Both the position numbers and the translations under genes were made by a program. Below are positions 16,437 through 59,210 of a DNA stretch of 64,000 nucleotides, in pieces. Under the pieces are notes generated by a model, which saw only the letters and a program-made list of their open reading frames with translations, made no database searches and had not been told where the DNA came from. Origin of the DNA: Natrinema sp. SYSU A 869 (GTDB lineage: Archaea > Halobacteriota > Halobacteria > Halobacteriales > Natrialbaceae); the NCBI RefSeq assembly GCF_019879105.1, contig NZ_CP082249.1, positions 3,658,001 through 3,722,000 on the forward strand, in the 5' to 3' direction. The first letter of the stretch is position 1; the number at the start of each line of letters is the position of its first letter.

Positions 16437-18058
16437 AGATAGCCTAAGTCGGACAGTCGGTCTTCGACAGTCCCATCGTCGGTCGCTACGATCTGGTTCG
16501 GATCGTAGGCCGGGTACGTTCGCTCCGCGTTCCCGCCGATAATCGAGAGCGGGTCACCGTCCATCGCGGCGTCGACCGGGATGTCGAAGAGCGAACAGAT
16601 CGTCGGTGCGACATCGAAGATCGTCGCTCCCTCGAGGGAGCGGACTCGTCGAACGCCGGCCCGGCAGCTGCGACGACGCCGGTTCGCTTGTGATTCCACG
16701 GCTCCATCGGTTCGCCGAACTGCGCCTTCCCGAGGCCAGCGTCGATCGCGGTGTCGAACTCTCTCGGAACCGTCACGACGTCGGGTGCCTCATCGACGTA
16801 TGGGCCGTCGAAATAGGTCTCTCTCGGTTCGACCGCGTCGAACATCGGTTCGCCGTCCGGCGTTCGGACGTCCGACAGCGTCTCGATGAGTTCCTCGCGG
16901 ACGCTCTCGTACTCCGCGGACGGCACCTGTCCGTTCGGTTCGCGGCCCGCGAGGTTGATCCGGACACCGAGTTCGCTCTTCGAGCGGACGTATGCTTTCG
17001 ACGCCGGGAAGTCGACCTGTTCGCTCGCCGCTCGGATCGCGTCGTTCGGTACCCGTTTGCCGATCGGTTCTTTCAGGCCGACGTGATCGAGTGCACTCGC
17101 GACCCGCTGGGTCGTGAGCCCGACGTTCGCGGCGAGGTTCATCGCTCGCTCGAGCGGGCTCGGCGCGTGATCGCCGGCCTCGGTCCCTCGAGGAGATCGT
17201 TCTCCCAGGATTTCGACCAGTTGGGCATTCCGCCACCGCCGCTTCGAGCACGCACGTAGTTGCGCTCGCGAAGGAACTCATTGACCCGGAATTCGTCGCC
17301 GGTCACCGTCCCCATGCCGTGGTCGCTGACGACCAGGACGTTCTCCGGCTCGGTTCGCTCGATGGTCGCTTCGAGCTGTCGGTCGACCTCGCGGTAGACC
17401 GCCTCGATCGCCCGTTTGTCCCCAGGACGCTCGTGAAACACCGAGTCGGTCTGCTGGAACTGCAGGAAGCCGAAGTCGGGAGCCATTCGGCGACAGAGGT
17501 ACCGGAACGCCTGCCCTCGGAGTTCGATCGTCCGTTCGTACCCCTCGATCGACCGGTCCGGTGCCGGCCCGCTCTGTGGATACACCCAGTACTCGCCACC
17601 GCAGGCGAGTTTCACGTCCTCGAGGATTCCCTCGGGATGGCAGCCCGGATCCTCGGGGGCAGTCAGTCCCGGAATCAACGCGCCATCGAACTCCCGGGCG
17701 GGATGGGTTACGGGCACGTTGACGACGACGCTCGAGAGCCCGTGCTCGCTCAGTAGCTCCCAGACCGGTCGCGCCCTGACGTGCGTCGCGTTGACGACGT
17801 CCCAGTCGTAGCCGTCGAACGAGAGGAAGTCGTAGACGCCGTGTTTTCCCGGATTCTTGCCAGTGTACAGCGATGGCCATGCGCTCGCCGTCCACGGCGG
17901 AATCTGGGACTCGAGTGGCCCCGCAGCCCCGCGATCGAACAGCCCCTGAGTGTGGGAAGTTCGCCCGACTCGAACAACGGCTCGAGCACCGGCCGACAGC
18001 CGGCGTCCAGCCCAACAACGAGCAGACGAAGGTCTTTGTCGTCGGTCGAACCTGCCAT
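16433..18058 (-). pseudogene. alkaline-phosphatase-superfamily protein with three single-base frameshifts
   Basis: Read with three corrections this is a protein of about 542 aa, close to the intact 530-aa paralog at 40717-42309. It opens with MAGSTDDKDLRLLVVGLDAG, carries the nucleophile region PPWTASAWPSLYTGKNPGKHG, the metal motif VVSDHGMG and IFDVAPTICSLFDIP, and ends VEDRLSDLGYL. The frame changes at about 17943-17946 (GGGG run), about 17175-17179 and about 16636-16638 (CCC run); each fits the loss of one base. The gene is therefore either a young pseudogene or intact with homopolymer sequencing errors. It overlaps the downstream acyltransferase by ATGA. The family includes phosphodiesterases, pyrophosphatases and sulfatases; the substrate is probably a glycan or nucleotide sugar. 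Confidence 0.85.
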
Positions 18059-18082
18059 GGAGGCGTTGTCCGTTCGCCCGTG

Positions 18083-18091
18083 CTTTGTTAT
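18083..18091 (-). promoter_or_regulatory. ATAACAAAG promoter motif, site 1
   Basis: The minus strand reads ATAACAAAG 25 bases before the ATG at 18058. This is the TATA-box position for a leaderless haloarchaeal transcript. The same 9-mer recurs upstream of many glycan genes in the window. Confidence 0.6.
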
Positions 18092-18301
18092 GCAACTACT
18101 GGCGTGCTGTAAGATCGTGCTGGGCGCTCTACGGTCAGAATAGTAGTTCAGGCAGCGTGACTGTCGTTCGCTGTCGATATCTGTAATACCCGATTGACCC
18201 GCCGATCGCGGGCTGTATCGCCCCTATCACTAAGGCCGCGCCCGTTTCCGTGTTACGTCGATGATCGTCTCTACTACTGACTTCCCACACCGCCGCTCTC
18301 T

Positions 18302-35659: not shown

Positions 35660-37453
35660 CTACGGCTCGCTACTGATAGCGTACATCTTGAACTCGTCGT
35701 TCGAGACGACCTTGTTCGCGCCCGGTTCGGTGTCGAGCCCCTCGAGTGCGGCGTTGCGGTAGTTGAGTTCTTGATAGATGTCGATCTCTTTCGTCCTGTC
35801 CCACTCCGTGACGACGAAGTAGTACTCGTCGGTCGGATAGGCCCCGCTGTAGTTGCCTGACGAGAAGACGCTCGCGTTGACGGTTCCGGTGGACGCCGAC
35901 GCGCCACCGATGGTATCGCCGCCGCCGGAGATACCGTTGATCGCGTGATCGTACCGGTAGGGATCATAACCCATGCCCGCGTAGGGAACGTCCTCGGCCC
36001 CGTGATCTAAGCCGTTCTCGTAGCCGCTCATCATTTCGGGGGTCACGTGCTGGCCCGGGTTGTAGATCAGCGGTGACGCGAACACCGTTATCAGACCGAG
36101 CACCAGACAGCAGCCGAGTATCAGGGCCGTGACCGCGTTCGCTCCCGGTCTCGTGAGCAGTCTCGAGAGGCCGCCCGTGAACTGTGCCAGCGCGATTCCG
36201 GCAAGGATCGTGATGAGAACGTAGATGAAGCCGATCTGTCGGAACGCCATCGTCGGGGTCCCGACGAAGTAGACCGCGAACAGGCCACCGAGCGGGATGA
36301 ATCCGAATCCGACGTAGTTGACGAAGGATCTGCTCTCGGCGTCGAGACTCGTCCGCCCGAGCCAGACGGCCAAGATGAGCAAGCCGACGAGGAGCCCGAT
36401 GATCGCCGCGTCGAGAAACATCTTCACGAAGAGTTCGGCGAGGCTCCCGCCGATATCGGTCAGCGACGATCCTCGCTGATCGACCTCGGTCCCGGCACCG
36501 ATGTCCTGGGCGAGCAGCCCGGAGATGAGTCCGGACGCAGCGCTTCTGAACCGTTCGTTGCCGAGCGCCCAGAGTCCGAACATCCCACCGAGGACGAGCG
36601 TGTGCGCGTACGTCGTCGGATGCTCGAGCATCGGGTGCTCGTCGAATCGTCGGCGGGCGAGGAACTGGACGCCGCTGATCGCGCCGACGAAGACGATGAT
36701 ATTGAACATCTGCTGAGGATGGACCAACAGGAGTGCGAGACTGGTGAGATAGATGAGCGCGCTGAACGGCGATAGCCCGAGCGGGAGCCGTTCGACCGTC
36801 GACCGCCGTCGGAGATAGGCGACGATAGCGAAGACCACGGGTGGAACGAGAAAGAGTGCGTTCGAGTTGGTGTGGACGCCCATGAACGTCGCGATGTTGT
36901 TGACCGGCAATATCATCCAAGAGACGATGGCGGCGAGCCCGACCGCCAGTCCGCTGCCGGCCATATCGCGGACGGCGAGCGGGACGAAGATAACGAACGG
37001 AACGAAGAGAACGACCATACCGATCAGGAGCCCGCGTTCGATCGGGATGCCACCGACGAAGTGAAACACTGTTGCGATGGCGTGTAATCCGGGATAGAAC
37101 AGTTCGTGGGGCGCGGTTCCCCCGGAGACGATATCTCGCGTCCAGCCCAGGTGTGTCATCGCGTCGCCCATCCCGGCGAAGCGATAGTTCCGGATCACGG
37201 GGAGGCTCACGATGGCCGTCACCGTCGTCCCGCCGAGTGCAATCCCGTACCCCTGTTGGCGACCGCGACAGGACAGGGTCGTCCCGACTGCGACGGCGAG
37301 CGCGAGTGCGAACACGGCCCAGGTGATCGTCGGCGATCCCACGTAGACTGAGGACTCGTAGGCGGCCGCCGGGTTCGCTCTCGCGACCAGAATTCCGATC
37401 GCGACTGCGAGAAATCCGGCCGCGACCGTCACGTTGAGCGTCGACCGTCTCAT
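35660..37453 (-). CDS. large polytopic membrane protein of the glycan cluster (GT-C/polymerase-like)
   Basis: 597 aa with about 13-14 membrane helices, then a soluble C-terminal domain (about 460-597, SGYENGLDHGAEDVPYAGMG, GNYSGAYPTDEYYFVVTEWD). The first large loop has GMGDAMTHLGWTRDIVSGG and ELFYPGLHAIATVFHFVGG, an acidic-loop arrangement like GT-C glycosyltransferases or oligosaccharide polymerases. I cannot name the family. The location in a polysaccharide locus supports a role in polymerisation, transfer or export. Its ATG overlaps the stop of a 14-codon leader ORF (37450-37494). The mini IS200/IS605 element touches its stop codon, so the C-terminus may have been altered. Confidence 0.8.
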   Translation of the reverse strand: MRRSTLNVTVAAGFLAVAIGILVARANPAAAYESSVYVGSPTITWAVFALALAVAVGTTLSCRGRQQGYGIALGGTTVTAIVSLPVIRNYRFAGMGDAMTHLGWTRDIVSGGTAPHELFYPGLHAIATVFHFVGGIPIERGLLIGMVVLFVPFVIFVPLAVRDMAGSGLAVGLAAIVSWMILPVNNIATFMGVHTNSNALFLVPPVVFAIVAYLRRRSTVERLPLGLSPFSALIYLTSLALLLVHPQQMFNIIVFVGAISGVQFLARRRFDEHPMLEHPTTYAHTLVLGGMFGLWALGNERFRSAASGLISGLLAQDIGAGTEVDQRGSSLTDIGGSLAELFVKMFLDAAIIGLLVGLLILAVWLGRTSLDAESRSFVNYVGFGFIPLGGLFAVYFVGTPTMAFRQIGFIYVLITILAGIALAQFTGGLSRLLTRPGANAVTALILGCCLVLGLITVFASPLIYNPGQHVTPEMMSGYENGLDHGAEDVPYAGMGYDPYRYDHAINGISGGGDTIGGASASTGTVNASVFSSGNYSGAYPTDEYYFVVTEWDRTKEIDIYQELNYRNAALEGLDTEPGANKVVSNDEFKMYAISSEP

Positions 37454-37494
37454 ATCATCTCACCGCGTTCGTCCGGGCCAGTCTCGATACGCAT
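37450..37494 (-). CDS. putative 14-aa leader ORF
   Basis: MRIETGPDERGEMI, ending in a TGA that overlaps the ATG of the membrane-protein gene (ATGA). Its ATG lies 31 bases after the ATAACAAAG-type motif, the spacing of leaderless starts elsewhere in the window. Whether it is translated is inferred. Confidence 0.35.
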   Translation of the reverse strand: MRIETGPDERGEMI

Positions 37495-37523: not shown

Positions 37524-37532
37524 GTTTGTTAT
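37524..37532 (-). promoter_or_regulatory. ATAACAAAC, variant of the ATAACAAAG motif, site 2
   Basis: Minus strand TATAACAAACC, one base different from the consensus. It precedes the 14-aa leader ORF and the large membrane-protein gene. Confidence 0.5.
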
Positions 37533-40716: not shown

Positions 40717-42309
40717 TCACTCCATGTAGCCGAGTCCCTTCAGCCGATCCTCCACGTCGTCGAAGTCCTCGTCGACCTCCTCACCGTTCTCGATCCGGCC
40801 CACCGCCGTCCGCTCGACTTTGGTCGCCGCCGGCGTCCCCTCCTCATCGAAGGCGTCGAAGAGGACCCGCCCGTCGGCGTTTTCCGGCACGGGCTCGCCG
40901 ATTCCGTGCAGCAGCGTCGGCGCGATGTCGACTACTCGAGCCCCGCGCAGGGTCGCGCCGGGTGCGATCGACGGGCCGCGACAGAGAACGATCCCCTCGC
41001 TGCGGTGGCTCGCGTCGTAGGTCCCCGTATCGCCGCGTATCTCGTCTGACATCCCGCTTCGGGACTCGTAGACGCCGCGGCCGCCGACCACGAGATCAGG
41101 CGAGTCCTCATCCGTCGGAAACAGGTCGTCCCCGTCGTGGACGACCAAGAGGGAATCGCCGTCGTCGTCGGTCGCTGACTCGAACGTGGCTCTAATATCG
41201 GCCTTTATTTCGGACACTTCGCTCGGCGAGACGACGCCGCTGTCGAAGCGCTCGGTGTCGTTGATATAGCAGTTGCCGGTGTCGTGGACGAACGCGACGG
41301 TCCGGTCGTAGTCGACGTCGTAGAGGGCGTGATCGCCGGGGATCTGCTCGGCAACGGAGTCGACCAGCCGCCGAGGCAGCGACTGGACGAGGGTTTCTTC
41401 GGTGATACCAACCCGATTGAGTGCCCCGGTAATGGCTTCGCGAGAGATGCCGAGGCTCGCGAGCGCCCCGCGGGTTCCCTCGTCCTCGCGCCGGAAGAGG
41501 TACCCTTCCTGCTCCAGAATACGGTTGACATAGACAAGTTCCTCGATCGGGCCGAAGCCGTGATCGGAGACGACATAGAGGTCTGCATCGTGATCATCCG
41601 TGTACTCCATGACCTCGCCGAGTATGTTGTCGAGTTTCTTGTAATGGGCGAGCAGTCGGTCCATATCCCAGATAAGGTGCTGGAACCGGTCGGGCGCGGT
41701 GTAGACGAAGAAGAACAGCTGCCAGTCGTCGCCGGCGCGATCCATCTGGATCTCCATGAGTTCGCGACGTTTTGTGAGCATGTCGTCAACAGCGACCTCG
41801 AAGTCGTCCAGCCGATCGGCGTACTCGGGATAGTCGAGACTGATATTATAGTCCGGAATCCGGGAGTCAATCTCGTCTTGCAGATCCGATGGATGCGTGA
41901 ACTCCCGATCCGTCGAGGGCGTCATCATCCCCGTGACCATGGTGCCGTCGATCTCGCGGGCTGGATATGTCATCGGGACGTTCCCGACGTGGGCCGGCCC
42001 GAGCTGATCCCAGAGGGCCGGCTGTGCGAGATTCCGACTCGTGTACATTTCGTGGCTGTATTCCGAAGAGAGATTCTGAAAGCCGTAGATGCCGTGTTTG
42101 TCCGGCCATACCCCCGTCGCGATCGATGGCCAGGCAAGAGGCGTCGTCGGCGGGCGAGTGCTGTCGAGCGTTCCGGACGCACCCTCCTCGCGCATCCGGG
42201 CGAAGTTCGGGAGTTCACCCTCGTCGCTCCATTGCTCGATGAGTCTCCACGGCACGCCGTCGAGTCCAAGCACGAACGCTCGCTCGGAGGGGGTCGTAGA
42301 TCCGCTCAT
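40717..42309 (-). CDS. alkaline-phosphatase-superfamily protein (phosphodiesterase/pyrophosphatase-like)
   Basis: 530 aa, intact. Metal-binding motifs: AFVLGLDGVPW at the N-terminus, the nucleophile loop RPPTTPLAWPSIATGVWPDKH, VVSDHGFGPIEE, and a late His in YDASHRSEGIVLCRGP. It lacks a signal peptide, so it acts in the cytoplasm or leaves by another route. The family covers nucleotide pyrophosphatases, phosphodiesterases and phosphonoacetate hydrolases. It shares length and the C-terminal VEDRL...LGY with the frameshifted paralog at 16433-18058, which also sits in a glycan cluster under the same promoter motif. Possible roles are recycling of nucleotide sugars or trimming of phosphoryl groups; the substrate is not known. 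Confidence 0.87.
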   Translation of the reverse strand: MSGSTTPSERAFVLGLDGVPWRLIEQWSDEGELPNFARMREEGASGTLDSTRPPTTPLAWPSIATGVWPDKHGIYGFQNLSSEYSHEMYTSRNLAQPALWDQLGPAHVGNVPMTYPAREIDGTMVTGMMTPSTDREFTHPSDLQDEIDSRIPDYNISLDYPEYADRLDDFEVAVDDMLTKRRELMEIQMDRAGDDWQLFFFVYTAPDRFQHLIWDMDRLLAHYKKLDNILGEVMEYTDDHDADLYVVSDHGFGPIEELVYVNRILEQEGYLFRREDEGTRGALASLGISREAITGALNRVGITEETLVQSLPRRLVDSVAEQIPGDHALYDVDYDRTVAFVHDTGNCYINDTERFDSGVVSPSEVSEIKADIRATFESATDDDGDSLLVVHDGDDLFPTDEDSPDLVVGGRGVYESRSGMSDEIRGDTGTYDASHRSEGIVLCRGPSIAPGATLRGARVVDIAPTLLHGIGEPVPENADGRVLFDAFDEEGTPAATKVERTAVGRIENGEEVDEDFDDVEDRLKGLGYME

Positions 42310-42365
42310 GATTATTGTATGAGACGTCGAAGACGCCTGTTGTCCTGTGGATCGCCCGATGAGCG

Positions 42366-42516: not shown

Positions 42517-42525
42517 ATAACAAAG
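42517..42525 (+). promoter_or_regulatory. ATAACAAAG motif, site 4
   Basis: Plus strand ATAACAAAG. An ATG follows at 42550 (25 bases) and opens a 14-codon frame (42550-42594, MRRIQSWWDPWAAS) that overlaps the start of the deacetylase gene in another frame. Confidence 0.55.
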
Positions 42526-42578
42526 CCACCCAAACGCGACCGTCCGGATATGAGACGCATTCAATCGTGGTGGGATCC

Positions 42579-43511
42579 GTGGGCAGCGTCGTAATTTCCC
42601 TCGATGCCGAACTCGGGTGGGGATTTCACGACCTCACCGAACCGCCGGCGGACCGCGTCGAGGCCGGCCGCCGCGGCTGGTCGGTCATGGTGGAGTTGCT
42701 CGAGGAATTCGACGTGCCAGCGACGTGGGCCATCGTCGGCCACCTCATGCTCGATTCCTGTGATGGCACCCATGCCGATCATCCGGCTCCCGAGGGCTGG
42801 TTCGAGCGCGAACGGGGTGAGTGGGGAGACCGCCCCGACCTTCGATTTGGCCCCGATCTCGTCTCCGACGTTCTCGAGTCCGACGCCGGACACGAGTTTG
42901 CCAGCCACTCCTTTTCGCACGTCCTGTTCGGCCGTCCGGAGACGGACCGCAAGCTCGCTGACGCCGAACTCGAGCGCAGCCACGAACTCGCGGCCGACTG
43001 GAACCAGTCGATCGACTCGTTCATCTATCCGCGCAACGACGTCGGCCACCGCGACGTACTGGCCGACCATGGGGTCACGGCCTATCGGGGGAAATCGCCG
43101 ACCAGAGACGGCGTTCGCGGCGTCTTCGACTCGACGATCCGAGACCAATCGATGCTGGTCGAACCGGTCGTCGATGAGTACGGACTGGTCAACGTGCCGG
43201 CGTCGATGTTCCTCTTCGGGTTCGAGGGCCCGGCGCGGACCGTCGCCGAGTCGATCTGGGAGGACCCGATGGTCGCGCTGGCTCGCCGCGGGATCGACGA
43301 GGCAGCGCGCACTGACGGGCTCTTTCACATGTGGCTCCATCCGAACAACCTGACCCGCGAACGGGACGACCGCCGCATGCGGGCAATCCTGTCGCACCTC
43401 GAGCGCCAGCGGTCGGCGACCGATCTCACCGTCGAGACGATTGCCGACGTCGCTCGTCGTATCACGGGACCTCCAAGTAGTACCGAACGGGCGACGGCGA
43501 GCTGGAGCTGA
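42579..43511 (+). CDS. polysaccharide deacetylase family protein
   Basis: About 310 aa from a GTG start (GSVVISLDAELGWGFHD); GTGs at 42567 and 42570 are alternatives. NodB-type motifs are the Asp of SLDAELGWG and the metal-binding His pair in EFASHSFSHVLFG. Further blocks are SFIYPRNDVGH and LFHMWLHPNNL. Such enzymes remove N- or O-acetyl groups from polysaccharides or glycolipids. The ATG at 42550 lies in another frame; adding one G to the GGG run near 42571 would join it in frame (MRRIQSWWGSVGSVV), so a sequencing deletion may hide the true start. Next to the phosphatase-like gene and an oxidoreductase operon, it fits glycan tailoring. Confidence 0.85.
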   Translation: MGSVVISLDAELGWGFHDLTEPPADRVEAGRRGWSVMVELLEEFDVPATWAIVGHLMLDSCDGTHADHPAPEGWFERERGEWGDRPDLRFGPDLVSDVLESDAGHEFASHSFSHVLFGRPETDRKLADAELERSHELAADWNQSIDSFIYPRNDVGHRDVLADHGVTAYRGKSPTRDGVRGVFDSTIRDQSMLVEPVVDEYGLVNVPASMFLFGFEGPARTVAESIWEDPMVALARRGIDEAARTDGLFHMWLHPNNLTRERDDRRMRAILSHLERQRSATDLTVETIADVARRITGPPSSTERATASWS

Positions 43512-53326: not shown

Positions 53327-54546
53327 TGGGTAGCAAAGTGATCGCGCACTGCTTCGACGACGGTCCGTCGGTCGCGCTCGGTCAGGCCGGGATGGACGGG
53401 CAGGGAGAGGACTTCGTCGGCGGCTCGTTCGGCCTGCGGCAGCGACGCCGCGGCCGCGCTGACCGTCTCGTAGGCCGGCTGGCGGTGGATCGGCGTCTCG
53501 TAGTAGATGCCGGTCCCGACCTCCCGCTCGGCGAGAGTCGACTCGAGGGCGTCCCGTTCGTCGGTCCGAACCGTATACTGGTGGTAGACGTGCCGGGAGT
53601 TCGTCGGCTCCGTCGGCGTCTCGAGGGACAGATCGGCGAGCCGATCGTCGTAGTAGGCGGCGGTTTCACGCCTGTCGCGGTTGAACTCCGAGAGCCGCTC
53701 GAGTTGGACGCGGCCGATCGCCGCCGCGACGCTCGTCATCCGGTAGTTATGGCCGAGATTGACATGCTCGTAGCCGCCGGTCCCGCTCACGTCCCGGCCG
53801 TGGTTGACGTAGCTCGCCGTGCGGGTGGCGATATCGTCGCGATCGGTGACGATCATTCCGCCCTCGCCGGTGGTCATGTTCTTCGTCGGGTAAAACGAGA
53901 AACACGCAGCGTCGCCGAACTCGCCGACGCGTCGGCCGTCGACCTTCGCCCCGTGGGCCTGACAGGCGTCCTCGACGACGAACAGGTCATGTTCGTCCGC
54001 CAGCTCGCACAGCGCCGGCATGTCTGCTGGGAGACCATAGAGGTGAACGGGGAGGATCCCGACGATATCGTCCCGCTCGCCGAGGACACGTTCGACGTCG
54101 GCCGGGTCCAGCGTGTACGTCTCGGGATCGATATCAGCGAAGACGGGGTTGCCCCCCGCCAGTCGAATCGCGTTCGCACTCGCCACGAAGGAAAACGGCG
54201 AGGTGATCACCGCGTCGCCCTCCTCGATCCCGATGGCCTCAAGCGCTGCGTGGAGGGCGGTCGTCCCGTTGGCGGTTGCGACCGCCTCATCCGTCCCGCA
54301 GTAGCCGGCAAATTCCTCTTCGAAGGCCCTCACTTCCGGCCCATCGGCGAGCCGACCGTCCTCGAGAACCGACTCGACGTGCTCGATGGCGTCGGTACTG
54401 AGCTCAGGATCGGCGATCGGAACCGGCGTCGACGCGTCGTCGCGGTCGAGTTCGGTCTCAGCGCCCGCCGTCTCGGCCCCCGTACCGGTGCTGGTGGCGG
54501 CCTCGATACTCCGGTCGGACTCGGGGTTCGTTTCGGTGTCAGTCAT
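53323..54546 (-). CDS. DegT/DnrJ/EryC1 aminotransferase, WbpE-like
   Basis: 407 aa. A low-complexity N-terminal tail of about 45 residues precedes the core (PIADPELSTDAIEHVESVLE). PLP-binding blocks are TANGTTALHAALEAIGI, FVVEDACQAHGAKVDG, and the Schiff-base lysine in CFSFYPTKNMTTGEGGMIV. The C-domain has VNLGHNYRMTSVAAAIG. It transfers an amino group to a keto-sugar on UDP, here probably the 3-keto product of the oxidoreductase encoded next. It overlaps both neighbours by ATGA. A start nearer the core is possible because the tail is unusual. Confidence 0.93.
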   Translation of the reverse strand: MTDTETNPESDRSIEAATSTGTGAETAGAETELDRDDASTPVPIADPELSTDAIEHVESVLEDGRLADGPEVRAFEEEFAGYCGTDEAVATANGTTALHAALEAIGIEEGDAVITSPFSFVASANAIRLAGGNPVFADIDPETYTLDPADVERVLGERDDIVGILPVHLYGLPADMPALCELADEHDLFVVEDACQAHGAKVDGRRVGEFGDAACFSFYPTKNMTTGEGGMIVTDRDDIATRTASYVNHGRDVSGTGGYEHVNLGHNYRMTSVAAAIGRVQLERLSEFNRDRRETAAYYDDRLADLSLETPTEPTNSRHVYHQYTVRTDERDALESTLAEREVGTGIYYETPIHRQPAYETVSAAAASLPQAERAADEVLSLPVHPGLTERDRRTVVEAVRDHFATQ

Positions 54547-55133
54547 GCGAGCTGGTTCGCCCCCTCGAGCGGGTCCGGTAGCTCCTGAACTGTCGCTGGG
54601 GTTCCGACGGCCATACTATCGGCCGGAACGTCCTCTGTGACGATGGCTCCAGCCGCGACGAAGGCGTTCTCGCCGATCGTCACGCCGGGCAACAGCGTCG
54701 CGTTCGCGCCGACCGACGCGCCGTCCTCGATCGTCGGCCCCTCGAGACCATCGTCGGTTCGGATGGGGTACTCGTCGTTGGTCAGCACGGCTCCCGGGCC
54801 AACGAAGACGTTGCTGCCGATCGACGTCTCGGTCGGGACGTAGACGTTCGTCTGGAGGCTGACGTGCGAGCCGATCGTCGTCTGCCCGTCGATAACCGTT
54901 TTGGTCCCGACGAGCACGTCGTCGCCGATTGCCGTCCCTTCGCGGACCAGAACGTCGTGGCCCGTTGCGAACTCGTCGCCGATCGTCACGTCGCCGTAGA
55001 CGATCGAGCCAGCTCTGATCGTCGCGTCGTCACCGATTCTGGTCGGCTCGTCGAACTCGCCGTAGCCGACCGTCGCGTCGTCGTCGATCGTACAGCAGTC
55101 GCCGTGAACGATGTCGCGTACTGCCTCGCTCAT
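54543..55133 (-). CDS. hexapeptide-repeat sugar N-acetyltransferase, WbpD-like
   Basis: 196 aa built of left-handed beta-helix hexapeptide repeats (IGDDATIRAGSIVYGDVTIG, VSLQTNVYVPTETSIGSNVF, VGANATLLPGVTIGENAFVA) with the terminal block AVGTPATV. WbpD/WlbB-type enzymes acetylate the 3-amino group of UDP-2-acetamido-3-amino-uronic acid. It is the first full-size gene of the operon, followed by the aminotransferase (ATGA overlap). Its own ATG overlaps the stop of an upstream short frame (55130-55279). The promoter motif lies at 55306-55314. Confidence 0.92.
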   Translation of the reverse strand: MSEAVRDIVHGDCCTIDDDATVGYGEFDEPTRIGDDATIRAGSIVYGDVTIGDEFATGHDVLVREGTAIGDDVLVGTKTVIDGQTTIGSHVSLQTNVYVPTETSIGSNVFVGPGAVLTNDEYPIRTDDGLEGPTIEDGASVGANATLLPGVTIGENAFVAAGAIVTEDVPADSMAVGTPATVQELPDPLEGANQLA

Positions 55134-55279
55134 CGCTGGCCACCTCCGTCAGCACGGGAGTCGTCCCAGTTCTCGCTCGAGTGAACGCGACGAATCGTGG
55201 CGTCCGTTCGGACCGCTACTCGAGATCGTGGTTGGTCGCGTATTCGTTTCATAGTGTTAATCGATACCCGCGTGGGCAA
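55130..55279 (-). CDS. putative leader ORF, 49 aa (40 aa from internal ATG)
   Basis: A frame from TTG 55279 (or ATG 55252), basic and Arg-rich (MKRIRDQPRSRVAVRTDA from the ATG), ending in TGA that overlaps the acetyltransferase ATG. The TTG lies 27 bases after the ATAACAAAG motif, the leaderless spacing. Composition is unlike ordinary haloarchaeal proteins, so it may be only a leader that couples translation. Confidence 0.3.
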   Translation of the reverse strand: MPTRVSINTMKRIRDQPRSRVAVRTDATIRRVHSSENWDDSRADGGGQR

Positions 55280-55305
55280 TCGTGCTCAAACAGCCGGTAA
55301 CGAAG

Positions 55306-55314
55306 CTTTGTTAT
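55306..55314 (-). promoter_or_regulatory. ATAACAAAG motif, site 8
   Basis: Minus strand GGATAACAAAGC, upstream of the leader frame and the whole wbp/wlb-like operon (55133 to 49731). Confidence 0.6.
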
Positions 55315-56422: not shown

Positions 56423-57409
56423 TCACTCCCCGGTCACCGATACCCAGAAGTGGGTCTCCTCAGCGGCGTTCTCGTTCGTCGGCGTCGCCGGCGGTTCGTC
56501 CTCGTAGAGCAATACGCTGATTCGAACCGTTTCGCCCGACTCCGCCGTCGGTGTGATCGTCCGCTCCCCGGTTCCCGTCGCGCCGTCTGAGACGGTCGCG
56601 TCGATCCGTCGTAACTCCGTTCGATCGACGACTGCACCGTCCTCAAGGGTCTGTTCCTGCACGACGACCGTATAGTCTCGATCGGCTCCCTCCTGATTCT
56701 CGATGGCGATCGTCAGCGGAATCGACTCGCCTGACTCGATTTCGCTCGGGAGTTCGCCGGCGACGACTTCGCCGTCCTCGTCCTCGCTGTAGAGCGCGAG
56801 TTCGGTGAACCCGCCCGCTGACGCGGGCACCAGGAACGCAACAAGTAACGCGCTGACCGCCGTCCCGATGGCCAGAACGAGCAGTACCGACGACGCCGTT
56901 GCGATCGCATTGTCACCGCTGAGACCGCCGAGACTCGCGATAGGCGAGACCGTAAAGCGCTCGCCGTCTGGGACTTGGAGCCGTCGAACGACGCCCAGCT
57001 GTGCGATGGCAACCGTAACAAAACCGAGCGCTGCTGCAATTGACGTCGTCGTCAGTCCGATTCCGCCGAGCGGCAATAGCAAGACGACCAGGGGAACGAC
57101 CGCCAGCGACAGGACGAACGCCAGGCCCGCGCGTTCGATCCCGTCGATCCCACGAGGCCGGCGCTCGGCGGCCGTCGCTGCTGTCTCGCGTGCGTCCCGC
57201 TCGCCGGCCGGAAAGAGGACCGAGACGAGCGCATAGCCCGGGAGAAACAGGGCGAGCGGAACAGTTACGAAGAGTCGCAGCGGATTCTCGCTTGCGAACG
57301 ATATCACGAGCAGGTAGGCGGCTACTGCACCGACCGAAACGGCCGCGAGGTCGAACGGGTAGCGACGAACCACTCCGAATCGGGTCCAGGTACTCATTTC
57401 ATGGCTCAT
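56423..57409 (-). CDS. DUF1616 membrane protein
   Basis: 328 aa from MSHEMSTWTRFGVVRRYPFD; GGTGG lies nine bases before this ATG. Four membrane helices occupy about the first 200 residues (DLAAVSVGAVAAYLLVISFA, LFVTVPLALFLPGYALVSVL). An extracytoplasmic beta-rich domain follows (LTIAIENQEGADRDYTVVVQ ... HFWVSVTGE). This is the DUF1616 architecture, common in archaeal surface-glycan loci, with no known activity. It is preceded by a 21-codon leader frame whose TGA overlaps this ATG. The PadR gene lies upstream on the same strand. Confidence 0.87.
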   Translation of the reverse strand: MSHEMSTWTRFGVVRRYPFDLAAVSVGAVAAYLLVISFASENPLRLFVTVPLALFLPGYALVSVLFPAGERDARETAATAAERRPRGIDGIERAGLAFVLSLAVVPLVVLLLPLGGIGLTTTSIAAALGFVTVAIAQLGVVRRLQVPDGERFTVSPIASLGGLSGDNAIATASSVLLVLAIGTAVSALLVAFLVPASAGGFTELALYSEDEDGEVVAGELPSEIESGESIPLTIAIENQEGADRDYTVVVQEQTLEDGAVVDRTELRRIDATVSDGATGTGERTITPTAESGETVRISVLLYEDEPPATPTNENAAEETHFWVSVTGE

Positions 57410-57471
57410 CGATAATCCACCAGCGTTCGCTGGTTGGCGTTCGATCCACATGCGGACAATACGAGTGGCAT
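57406..57471 (-). CDS. putative 21-aa leader ORF
   Basis: Begins MPLVLSACGSNANQ and ends in TGA overlapping the DUF1616 ATG (ATGA). Its ATG is 30 bases after ATAACAAAG, the leaderless spacing. The palindrome ACCAGCGTTCGCTGGT (57419-57434) lies inside it, so the mRNA could fold here. Translation is inferred. Confidence 0.35.
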   Translation of the reverse strand: MPLVLSACGSNANQRTLVDYR

Positions 57472-57500
57472 TCTCGTCGGATCGAACTACTCTTCGGTTC

Positions 57501-57509
57501 TTTGTTATG
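57501..57509 (-). promoter_or_regulatory. ATAACAAAG motif, site 9
   Basis: Minus strand ATAACAAAG upstream of the 21-aa leader frame and the DUF1616 gene. Confidence 0.55.
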
Positions 57510-58113: not shown

Positions 58114-58446
58114 TTACTCTTCGATATCCGAAACCGCGACATCGATTCCGTCGGCGTCGATTTGGATGCGGAGGACATCGACGGTCGCCTCGTAGGCGGT
58201 CGTATGTGAGCCGTCGTCGTCGAACCGCACGCACTCCGCGACGAGATCGCTCTCGAGGAGGTTGTTGATTCGTCGGTAGACGGTCGCCGACGAGCTATCC
58301 GTTCGTTTAGTCAATTCCTTTGCCGTCTTCGGGCCCTCGCTCGTCGCGATGAGGATCGTCCGGGCACAGTCGTCCCCGAGGACGTCGAGCTGGGCCGTCT
58401 GGTCGGCAGTCGACTCCGATCGCGTGTTACTCGCTTGCGTTGACAT
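58114..58446 (-). CDS. small winged-helix (ArsR-like) regulator
   Basis: 110 aa from MSTQASNTRSES; an ATG 12 codons upstream is an alternative. The winged helix reads LDVLGDDCARTILIATSEGP, KTAKELTKRTDSSSATVYRR, INNLLESDLVAE, with a short wing and a beta hairpin (YEATVDVLRIQIDADGIDVA). No effector or metal-binding cysteines beyond two isolated ones. Haloarchaea have many such free-standing regulators. It stands alone upstream of the PadR gene. Confidence 0.88.
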   Translation of the reverse strand: MSTQASNTRSESTADQTAQLDVLGDDCARTILIATSEGPKTAKELTKRTDSSSATVYRRINNLLESDLVAECVRFDDDGSHTTAYEATVDVLRIQIDADGIDVAVSDIEE

Positions 58447-59018
58447 AGTCGTGGTCACCCGTCCAGGACGGGCAGGATCCATTCGCTCTTCGTGAGAGGT
58501 GACGATACGAGACGGGCGGCAGTCGGGCCACCACTGTCGGGCGAACCACCATTACATTCCGACACGAAGATCGGTAAGCGATAGTGGTATTTTATAACGA
58601 TGTACCTTATCCCTTCCAGCCATCTCGCTGCATGACGTAAGATCGTATTTCGATCCGGAAACAACAGCTTTCGACCAGCTATCGAACGGATCAATTCCAT
58701 TTTTGAGTGCCAAATACTGCCCAACACGACTAAATTCGGATTGAGGTCCCTCATCGACCGATTCCGGGATACGCTGTTTTACGCGGTATCAGCCCCTCTA
58801 TCCTCCGTAAAGCAGCTCTTTCCCGGTTTTCAAACCAGCGCTCTGGGTAAACGGTCTGCGTCCTTTATTCGCATTTGCTCCCCTTGATTCGATGATGCCC
58901 GGACGGGTATCGTGACGGATCGGCGGCAGCACTGGCGGCCGGGACTACAGGCAGAGCGGATCGTCCTCGGTCGGCGGTATGATCGATCGCGGCTCGTCCG
59001 AGTACACCCCCACAACCC
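58447..59018. other. intergenic, AT-richer, no supported gene
   Basis: 570 bases between divergent small genes. The part 58560-58760 is AT-rich (GTATTTTATAACGATG, ATTCCATTTTTGAGTGCC) and probably contains promoters. No gene called. Confidence 0.4.
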
Positions 59019-59210
59019 ATGAACTCCACACAACACGACTGGAAGCCCATGGAATCGTCGACAGCTGGTGCCCGCTGTCGAAACTGCGGCACGCACGTAA
59101 CACAGCAGTTCGCTCGCGTCTTCGGTGATAACGGCGATATCGTGCACGGCTGTCCGTCCTGTACGACGTATCGGGAGATGCAATCCGGCGGTCATCTCCC
59201 TGGCGACTGA
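59019..59210 (+). CDS. small zinc-ribbon protein (DUF7563-like), second copy
   Basis: 63 aa starting MNSTQHDWKPMESST. The zinc ribbon reads CRNCGTHVTQQFARVFGDNG, then CPSC and TTYREM. It is a clear paralog of the protein at 13034-13240 (same FARVFGDN core and YREM tail). An internal Met at residue 11 is an alternative start. No operon partner; function unknown. Confidence 0.78.
   Translation: MNSTQHDWKPMESSTAGARCRNCGTHVTQQFARVFGDNGDIVHGCPSCTTYREMQSGGHLPGD

Follow-up and report, generated by a model that had tools for sequence, protein, structure and literature searches.

Conserved micro-ORFs behind a shared promoter motif at glycan genes of Natrialbaceae, and their possible role in ribosome delivery

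Known coupled small frames and the present loci

Transcript mapping and ribosome profiling support the coupled leaderless small ORFs of mycobacteria (Shell et al. 2015, PMC4633059). The TGA of such a small ORF shares bases with the following start codon as RTGA, and in one orthologous pair the linkage was kept while the peptide changed. Overlapping gene pairs of Haloferax volcanii, joined by ATGA or TGATG, have a Shine-Dalgarno motif within the 3' part of their upstream frame, and overlapping ATGA pairs in Haloferax are strictly coupled (Huber et al. 2019, PMC6728339). The same study reports that haloarchaeal Shine-Dalgarno motifs do not recruit ribosomes de novo in 5' UTRs and often aid reinitiation. 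Small frames are also described upstream of H. volcanii genes, including the glycan flippase gene agl15 (PMC4983044); these uORFs encode 15-31 aa, lie inside UTRs of 150-250 nt and were judged by pI, and neither their coupling nor their conservation is reported in the excerpt consulted. In Escherichia coli, an AUG at the 5' end of the mRNA opens a short frame followed by a gene with a Shine-Dalgarno motif, and that gene can initiate by itself through this motif (PMC4965119). A 2025 review (PMC12548453) contains the notion that ribosomes can be "delivered" by a short ORF.

We analysed a stretch of 64,000 nucleotides from Natrinema sp. SYSU A 869 (the window), in which four main genes, A to D, follow a promoter motif and a micro-ORF, here called a leader. 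The closest precedent is the mycobacterial coupled leaderless small ORF: the RTGA overlap is found at leaders A, B and C, though not at D, and linkage without peptide conservation is common to both. The present case differs from the bacterial one in being archaeal, in its single promoter motif and its glycan genes, in the Shine-Dalgarno motif inside the leader, in its conservation through about 29 genera, and in being known from sequence alone. With the H. volcanii pairs, which belong to the same group of organisms, leaders A, B and C share the kind of overlap and the place of the Shine-Dalgarno motif; the upstream frame there is a normal protein gene, whereas here it has 10-50 codons and an unconserved peptide. 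The H. volcanii uORFs resemble the leaders as small frames ahead of haloarchaeal genes and differ in their long-UTR setting. The E. coli frames have the same order of elements, but their downstream genes initiate on their own, which haloarchaeal ones reportedly cannot do by a Shine-Dalgarno motif. A literature search returned no report of such leaders for haloarchaeal glycan genes, which is weak evidence because the coverage was partial.

Architecture of the leaders and their promoters

At locus A, the promoter motif ATAACAAAG lies at 57500-57508 on the minus strand. It was found in nearly all Natrialbaceae orthologs, with ATAACAAAA, ATAACAATG and ATAACGAAG as variants. The leader (57406-57471, minus; 21 aa, MPLVLSACGSNANQRTLVDYR) starts at ATG 57471, and its TGA at 57408-57406 overlaps the main ATG 57409 in the tetramer ATGA. 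The main gene (56423-57409, minus) encodes a DUF1616 membrane protein of 328 aa, and ATG 57409 corresponds to the RefSeq start in relatives. A Shine-Dalgarno-like GGTG (57418-57421, minus) stands within the leader end, 9-12 nt upstream of the main ATG; its columns are 77-96% conserved, compared with about 50% in the surroundings. We rejected ATG 57451, which is in frame with main gene A, as another possible start of its protein: it is not conserved, relatives have stops in its frame, and their RefSeq starts sit at ATGA.

In several genera, the DUF1616 gene is preceded by two small helix-turn-helix genes (L356 4930-5780, L358 437-1181, L363 1475-2319, L364 1417-2238), one of which is annotated as PadR family in several records. 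Their counterparts in the window (58114-59195, minus) were assigned by place and size only. These genes are candidate regulators of the ATAACAA promoters.

Locus C has a motif, ATAACAAAC, at 37524-37532 (minus), one mismatch from ATAACAAAG. Its leader (37450-37494, minus; 14 aa, MRIETGPDERGEMI) runs from ATG 37494 to a TGA that shares an ATGA with the main ATG 37453. A Shine-Dalgarno-like GGTGA is contained in the leader end (37460-37464, minus), and the main gene (35660-37453, minus) encodes a 597-aa membrane protein of no Pfam family.

Locus D is arranged differently. Behind the motif ATAACAAAG (42517-42525, plus), ATG 42550 opens a 14-aa leader (MRRIQSWWDPWAAS; 42550-42594, plus) that enters the main gene out of frame and stops at TAA 42592-42594. 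The main gene, for a polysaccharide deacetylase (42567-43511, plus), has candidate starts at GTG 42567, 42570 and 42579. In Haloterrigena turkmenica the RefSeq start is the third of these, which shortens the overlap; depending on the GTG chosen and on the species, the leader reaches its stop 5-25 nt into the gene. Among the relatives tallied, leader D showed no ATGA overlap, and a Shine-Dalgarno motif was found in 0% of them. Leader D resembles A, B and C more loosely, its overlap being longer and the Shine-Dalgarno motif absent. It may be weakly coupled or partly a by-product of the overlapping gene, and its conservation may largely follow from that overlap.

The frames of leaders A and C, with their ATGA overlaps, and of leader D, which overlaps its gene in another manner, were read in the sequence as the first-pass annotation had described them. 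The distances from motif end to ATG needed correction: 28 nt instead of 30 for A, 29 instead of 31 for C, where in addition the motif is ATAACAAAC and not the quoted ATAACAAAG, and 24 instead of 25 for D.

Locus B departed further from that description, which had placed a 49-aa leader from TTG 55279 at leaderless distance. The frame and its ATGA at 55133 are present. The TTG start was rejected since it is not conserved, relatives reading ATTA, ACTG or ATCA there. The conserved start of this frame is ATG 55252, 51-55 nt past the motif ATAACAAAG (55306-55314, minus) and therefore not at leaderless distance. The leader so defined (55130-55252, minus; 40 aa, MKRIRDQPRSR...) ends in a TGA that overlaps the main ATG 55133 and contains GGAGGTG near its end (55141-55147, minus). 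Main gene B (54543-55133, minus) encodes a hexapeptide-repeat acyltransferase of 196 aa. The stretch of 51-55 nt between motif and leader (55253-55305, minus; GCCTCGTTACCGGCTG...GCCCACGCGGGTATCGATT) shows high conservation across 30 relatives as well as Haloterrigena, Natronorubrum and Halosolutus, and is among the most conserved pieces that we met. It may hold a small hairpin, GCCCACGCGGGT, spotted by eye, or a protein-binding site. The stretch had no match in Rfam, and no known RNA element was matched anywhere in the window.

A similar distance was seen at a phosphodiesterase gene without a leader frame (42309-42365, minus), whose start 42309 stands 56-57 nt from the motif. This spacing is kept in relatives and resembles that of leader B; the two perhaps form a second promoter-spacing class.

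Within the window, 12 motif sites with at most one mismatch were found, compared with 1.6 expected. In several haloarchaeal families, ATAACAA stands ahead of glycan genes and DUF1616 genes and often lies at leaderless distance (order-level loci L226, L228, L229 and L239; Haloferax L359 and L360), as if it stood in for the usual TATA box. Another phosphodiesterase gene (17139-18095, minus), which follows the motif at 18083, seems to carry a frameshift in the present genome: ATG 18058, 24 nt past the motif, opens 102 codons resembling the N-terminus, and the Pfam-matching body lies in another frame.

The motif also occurs directly before main genes. This is so for genes 43624, ~47945 and 48107 in the window (spacing 25-30 nt), for two DUF1616 genes of Haloferax, and for several distant homologs of gene C in other families, which may be paralogs. 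Motif and leader are therefore separable. The spacing of leaders A, C and D equals that of the neighbouring genes that start directly behind the motif.

These distant homologs of C and the Haloferax DUF1616 homologs, which have no leader, would fit an ancient frame break, in which an indel in an ancestor split off the N-terminus of a leaderless gene, reinitiation at ATGA rescued it, and the leader is a fixed relic of no regulatory benefit. We consider this unlikely, though worth keeping in mind. By eye, no similarity is apparent between the leaders and the N-termini of unsplit homologs, the leader interval has persisted through many changes of length, and to produce this arrangement at three unrelated genes such a break would have had to occur three times. 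The frame-break reading concerns origin and is compatible with ribosome delivery as the present-day mechanism.

Conservation of the frame and drift of the peptide

How often such a leader arises by chance was estimated from dinucleotide shuffles of the segment between motif and gene; an ATG-coupled leader arose in 4.6% of them for A, 13% for C and 3% for B. Across 50 kb of annotated Haloterrigena turkmenica sequence, six coupled micro-frames precede leading genes, hardly more than the 3.8 +/- 1.5 obtained in shuffles. A genome-wide enrichment of coupled micro-ORFs was considered and dropped: the histogram of raw offsets has its maximum at ATGA, with 9 of the 74 leading genes, but an ATGA start itself supplies that stop and shuffles give nearly as many, so we make no claim of enrichment. 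A single genome proves little, and chance could explain its leaders; judged by the comparison of relatives, conservation excludes chance.

We collected orthologs from up to 149 relatives and compared their upstream DNA, tallying 70 genomes each for A and C and 30 relatives for B and D. The leader was present in every case (70/70 for A, 70/70 for C, 30/30 for B and 30/30 for D), although these counts overstate independence because the sequences are related. The first-pass annotation had named lack of conservation as what would speak against its reading; the frames are conserved in other haloarchaea. Leaders A and C span about 29 genera of Natrialbaceae. The stop of leaders A, B and C falls on the main start nearly always, as ATGA, GTGA or, in one relative for B, TGATG. 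The leader ATG lies 21-33 nt past the motif for A (mode 28), 26-31 nt for C (mode 29), 51-53 nt for B in the tally, and 24-25 nt in all 30 relatives for D. It was the overlap, and not the leader length, that the comparison of orthologous upstream regions found kept: tallied lengths vary from 16 to 42 aa for A (48 aa in Natronorubrum bangense), from 13 to 29 aa for C and from 21 to 42 aa for B. Additional Natrialbaceae beyond the tally agree, except for three genomes in which leader C is far longer (57-92 aa) and stops, without an ATGA, 5 nt into the main gene.

Annotated starts agree with the overlap. The stop of leader A overlaps the RefSeq start in Haloterrigena turkmenica, Natronorubrum daqingense, Natronorubrum bangense, Halosolutus gelatinilyticus and Halostagnicola larsenii, and the stops of B and C likewise do so in the named genomes where this was checked. 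None of the leaders is annotated in the RefSeq regions viewed.

The same comparison bears on a sequencing error or a recently lost base that split one gene, a reading against which the earlier description had itself warned and which would look identical in one genome. The arrangement is found in all 70 orthologs each of A and C, and the leader is fused to the main gene in none (0/70 and 0/70). Since the leader is kept in relatives and none is fused, such a loss is excluded for practical purposes.

Leader A extends to three families besides Natrialbaceae, as seen from the DUF1616 loci compared. In one of them (f17, which includes Haladaptatus and Halorussus as judged by coordinates it shares with plasmid records), every DUF1616 locus with the motif has a coupled leader. 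Three genomes of f12 and three loci of f6 have it as well, the f6 overlaps being TGATG; two of these three f6 loci carry a motif variant, CTAACAAAG, read by eye. A scripted scan found no coupled leader at 32 DUF1616 loci that lacked the motif in the form searched for; two of these 32 are the CTAACAAAG loci, where by eye both have one. Nine further DUF1616 loci, mostly of f6, have a motif-like site and no coupled leader.

To separate selection on the frame from selection on the peptide, we mapped indels on a tree of 65 genomes, built from short N-terminal stretches. Leader length changed 16 times for A and 9 times for C, and none of these changes breaks the frame. The segment between motif and leader ATG changed length 15 times (A) and 11 times (C), and 13 and 11 of these changes, respectively, are frame-changing. 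Frame-keeping differs between the two segments at p of about 1e-12 (Fisher test). No in-frame stop precedes the overlap in any of 170 leader sequences, whereas the other two frames of the same sequences contain a stop in 65/170 and 82/170.

The conserved bases around the leader ATG, together with the fact that any ATGA start supplies an in-frame TGA, could mean that the ATG is kept solely as DNA surrounding the transcription start, the open frame being incidental. The phase kept through about 25 length changes, next to an untranslated segment that varies freely, and the lack of in-frame stops in all 170 sequences make this very improbable.

The peptide shows a different pattern from the frame. 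The dN/dS ratios (NG86) are 1.00 for A, 0.96-1.18 for C and 1.19 for B, substitutions are spread fairly evenly over the three codon positions, and A leaders of equal length share only 32% peptide identity. An intact frame together with dN/dS of about 1 is the signature expected when translation matters and the peptide does not. With such ratios and no frame breaks, the architecture proved more conserved than the peptide. What selection keeps, on this evidence, is probably the translation of the frame and its end point, not the peptide. The coupling or translational control proposed in the first-pass annotation is supported as far as coupling goes; its stress on a leader peptide is probably wrong, given these ratios.

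The opening of leader C (ATGCGTATCGA) is conserved at every codon position, and its first codons read MRI[DE]. This suggests a constraint at the level of the mRNA, acting at the initiation site. The same codons could be cited for a regulatory leader peptide or attenuator, whose nascent peptide or codons would respond to a metabolite or amino acid by stalling the ribosome, as could the position of the leaders at the head of biosynthetic operons and the arginine content of the A (19%) and B (29%) peptides. The arginine is largely expected of GC-rich DNA, other frames containing 15-17% K+R, and dN/dS of about 1 and the low identity among A leaders also speak against sensing. No conserved regulatory codon run or peptide was found in the leaders, nor any single-codon run shared among them. 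We regard an attenuator as improbable. Functional micropeptides acting alone, for example as partners of membrane proteins, could account for the presence and rough length being conserved across genera. There is no purifying selection on the peptide, however, and A and B are strongly basic (median pI 11.5 and 12.0), which is unusual for soluble haloarchaeal proteins. The leader as a functional peptide was rejected on dN/dS, and we give the micropeptide explanation hardly any credence.

Shine-Dalgarno motifs and the proposed delivery of ribosomes

Complementarity to the 3' end of 16S rRNA lies inside leaders A, C and B, about 5-12 nt upstream of the main start, as GGTG, GGTGA and GGAGGTG, respectively. 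A Shine-Dalgarno match of at least 4 nt precedes the main start in 94% of A sequences compared with 38% in shuffled ones, in 100% compared with 58% for B (30 relatives), and in 79% compared with 50% for C. Before the leader ATGs, Shine-Dalgarno motifs showed no enrichment.

We think it likely, from the comparative evidence, that the leader is a translated micro-ORF that delivers ribosomes to the main gene and does not serve to make a peptide. For A, C and D, the transcript would have its 5' end on the leader ATG or no more than a few bases away, as the motif spacing of about 24-33 nt indicates, and initiation would be leaderless. For B, whose leader starts 51-55 nt past the motif, a short 5' UTR is likely. 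The ribosome would then translate a leader of 10 to about 50 codons whose sequence is arbitrary, as the intact frame and dN/dS near 1 imply. At A, B and C, it would halt on the TGA overlapping the main start codon and restart on the main gene, presumably aided by the Shine-Dalgarno motif within the leader end. Reinitiation of this kind has been demonstrated by experiment at ATGA gene pairs of Haloferax (PMC6728339). Since such motifs reportedly recruit no ribosomes de novo, the main gene should depend on its leader. The leader would couple the main gene to leaderless initiation and would probably set its level.

A broader reading is possible, and we offer it tentatively. Haloarchaea may have a mode of translation in which the first genes of some operons can be reached only through a leaderless micro-ORF that is indifferent to its peptide: the promoter would fix the point of entry, the micro-ORF would bridge the gap, and the Shine-Dalgarno motif would serve the handover only. 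As leader A occurs in no fewer than four families of its order, this would be an old and fixed expression device for cell-surface glycan genes. The loci provide a natural archaeal case in which comparative data separate a frame that survives about 25 length changes from a freely drifting peptide. They also suggest why organisms that reportedly make no use of Shine-Dalgarno motifs in normal initiation nevertheless have them. Because the leaders are absent from the annotation viewed, similar devices may be widely missed.
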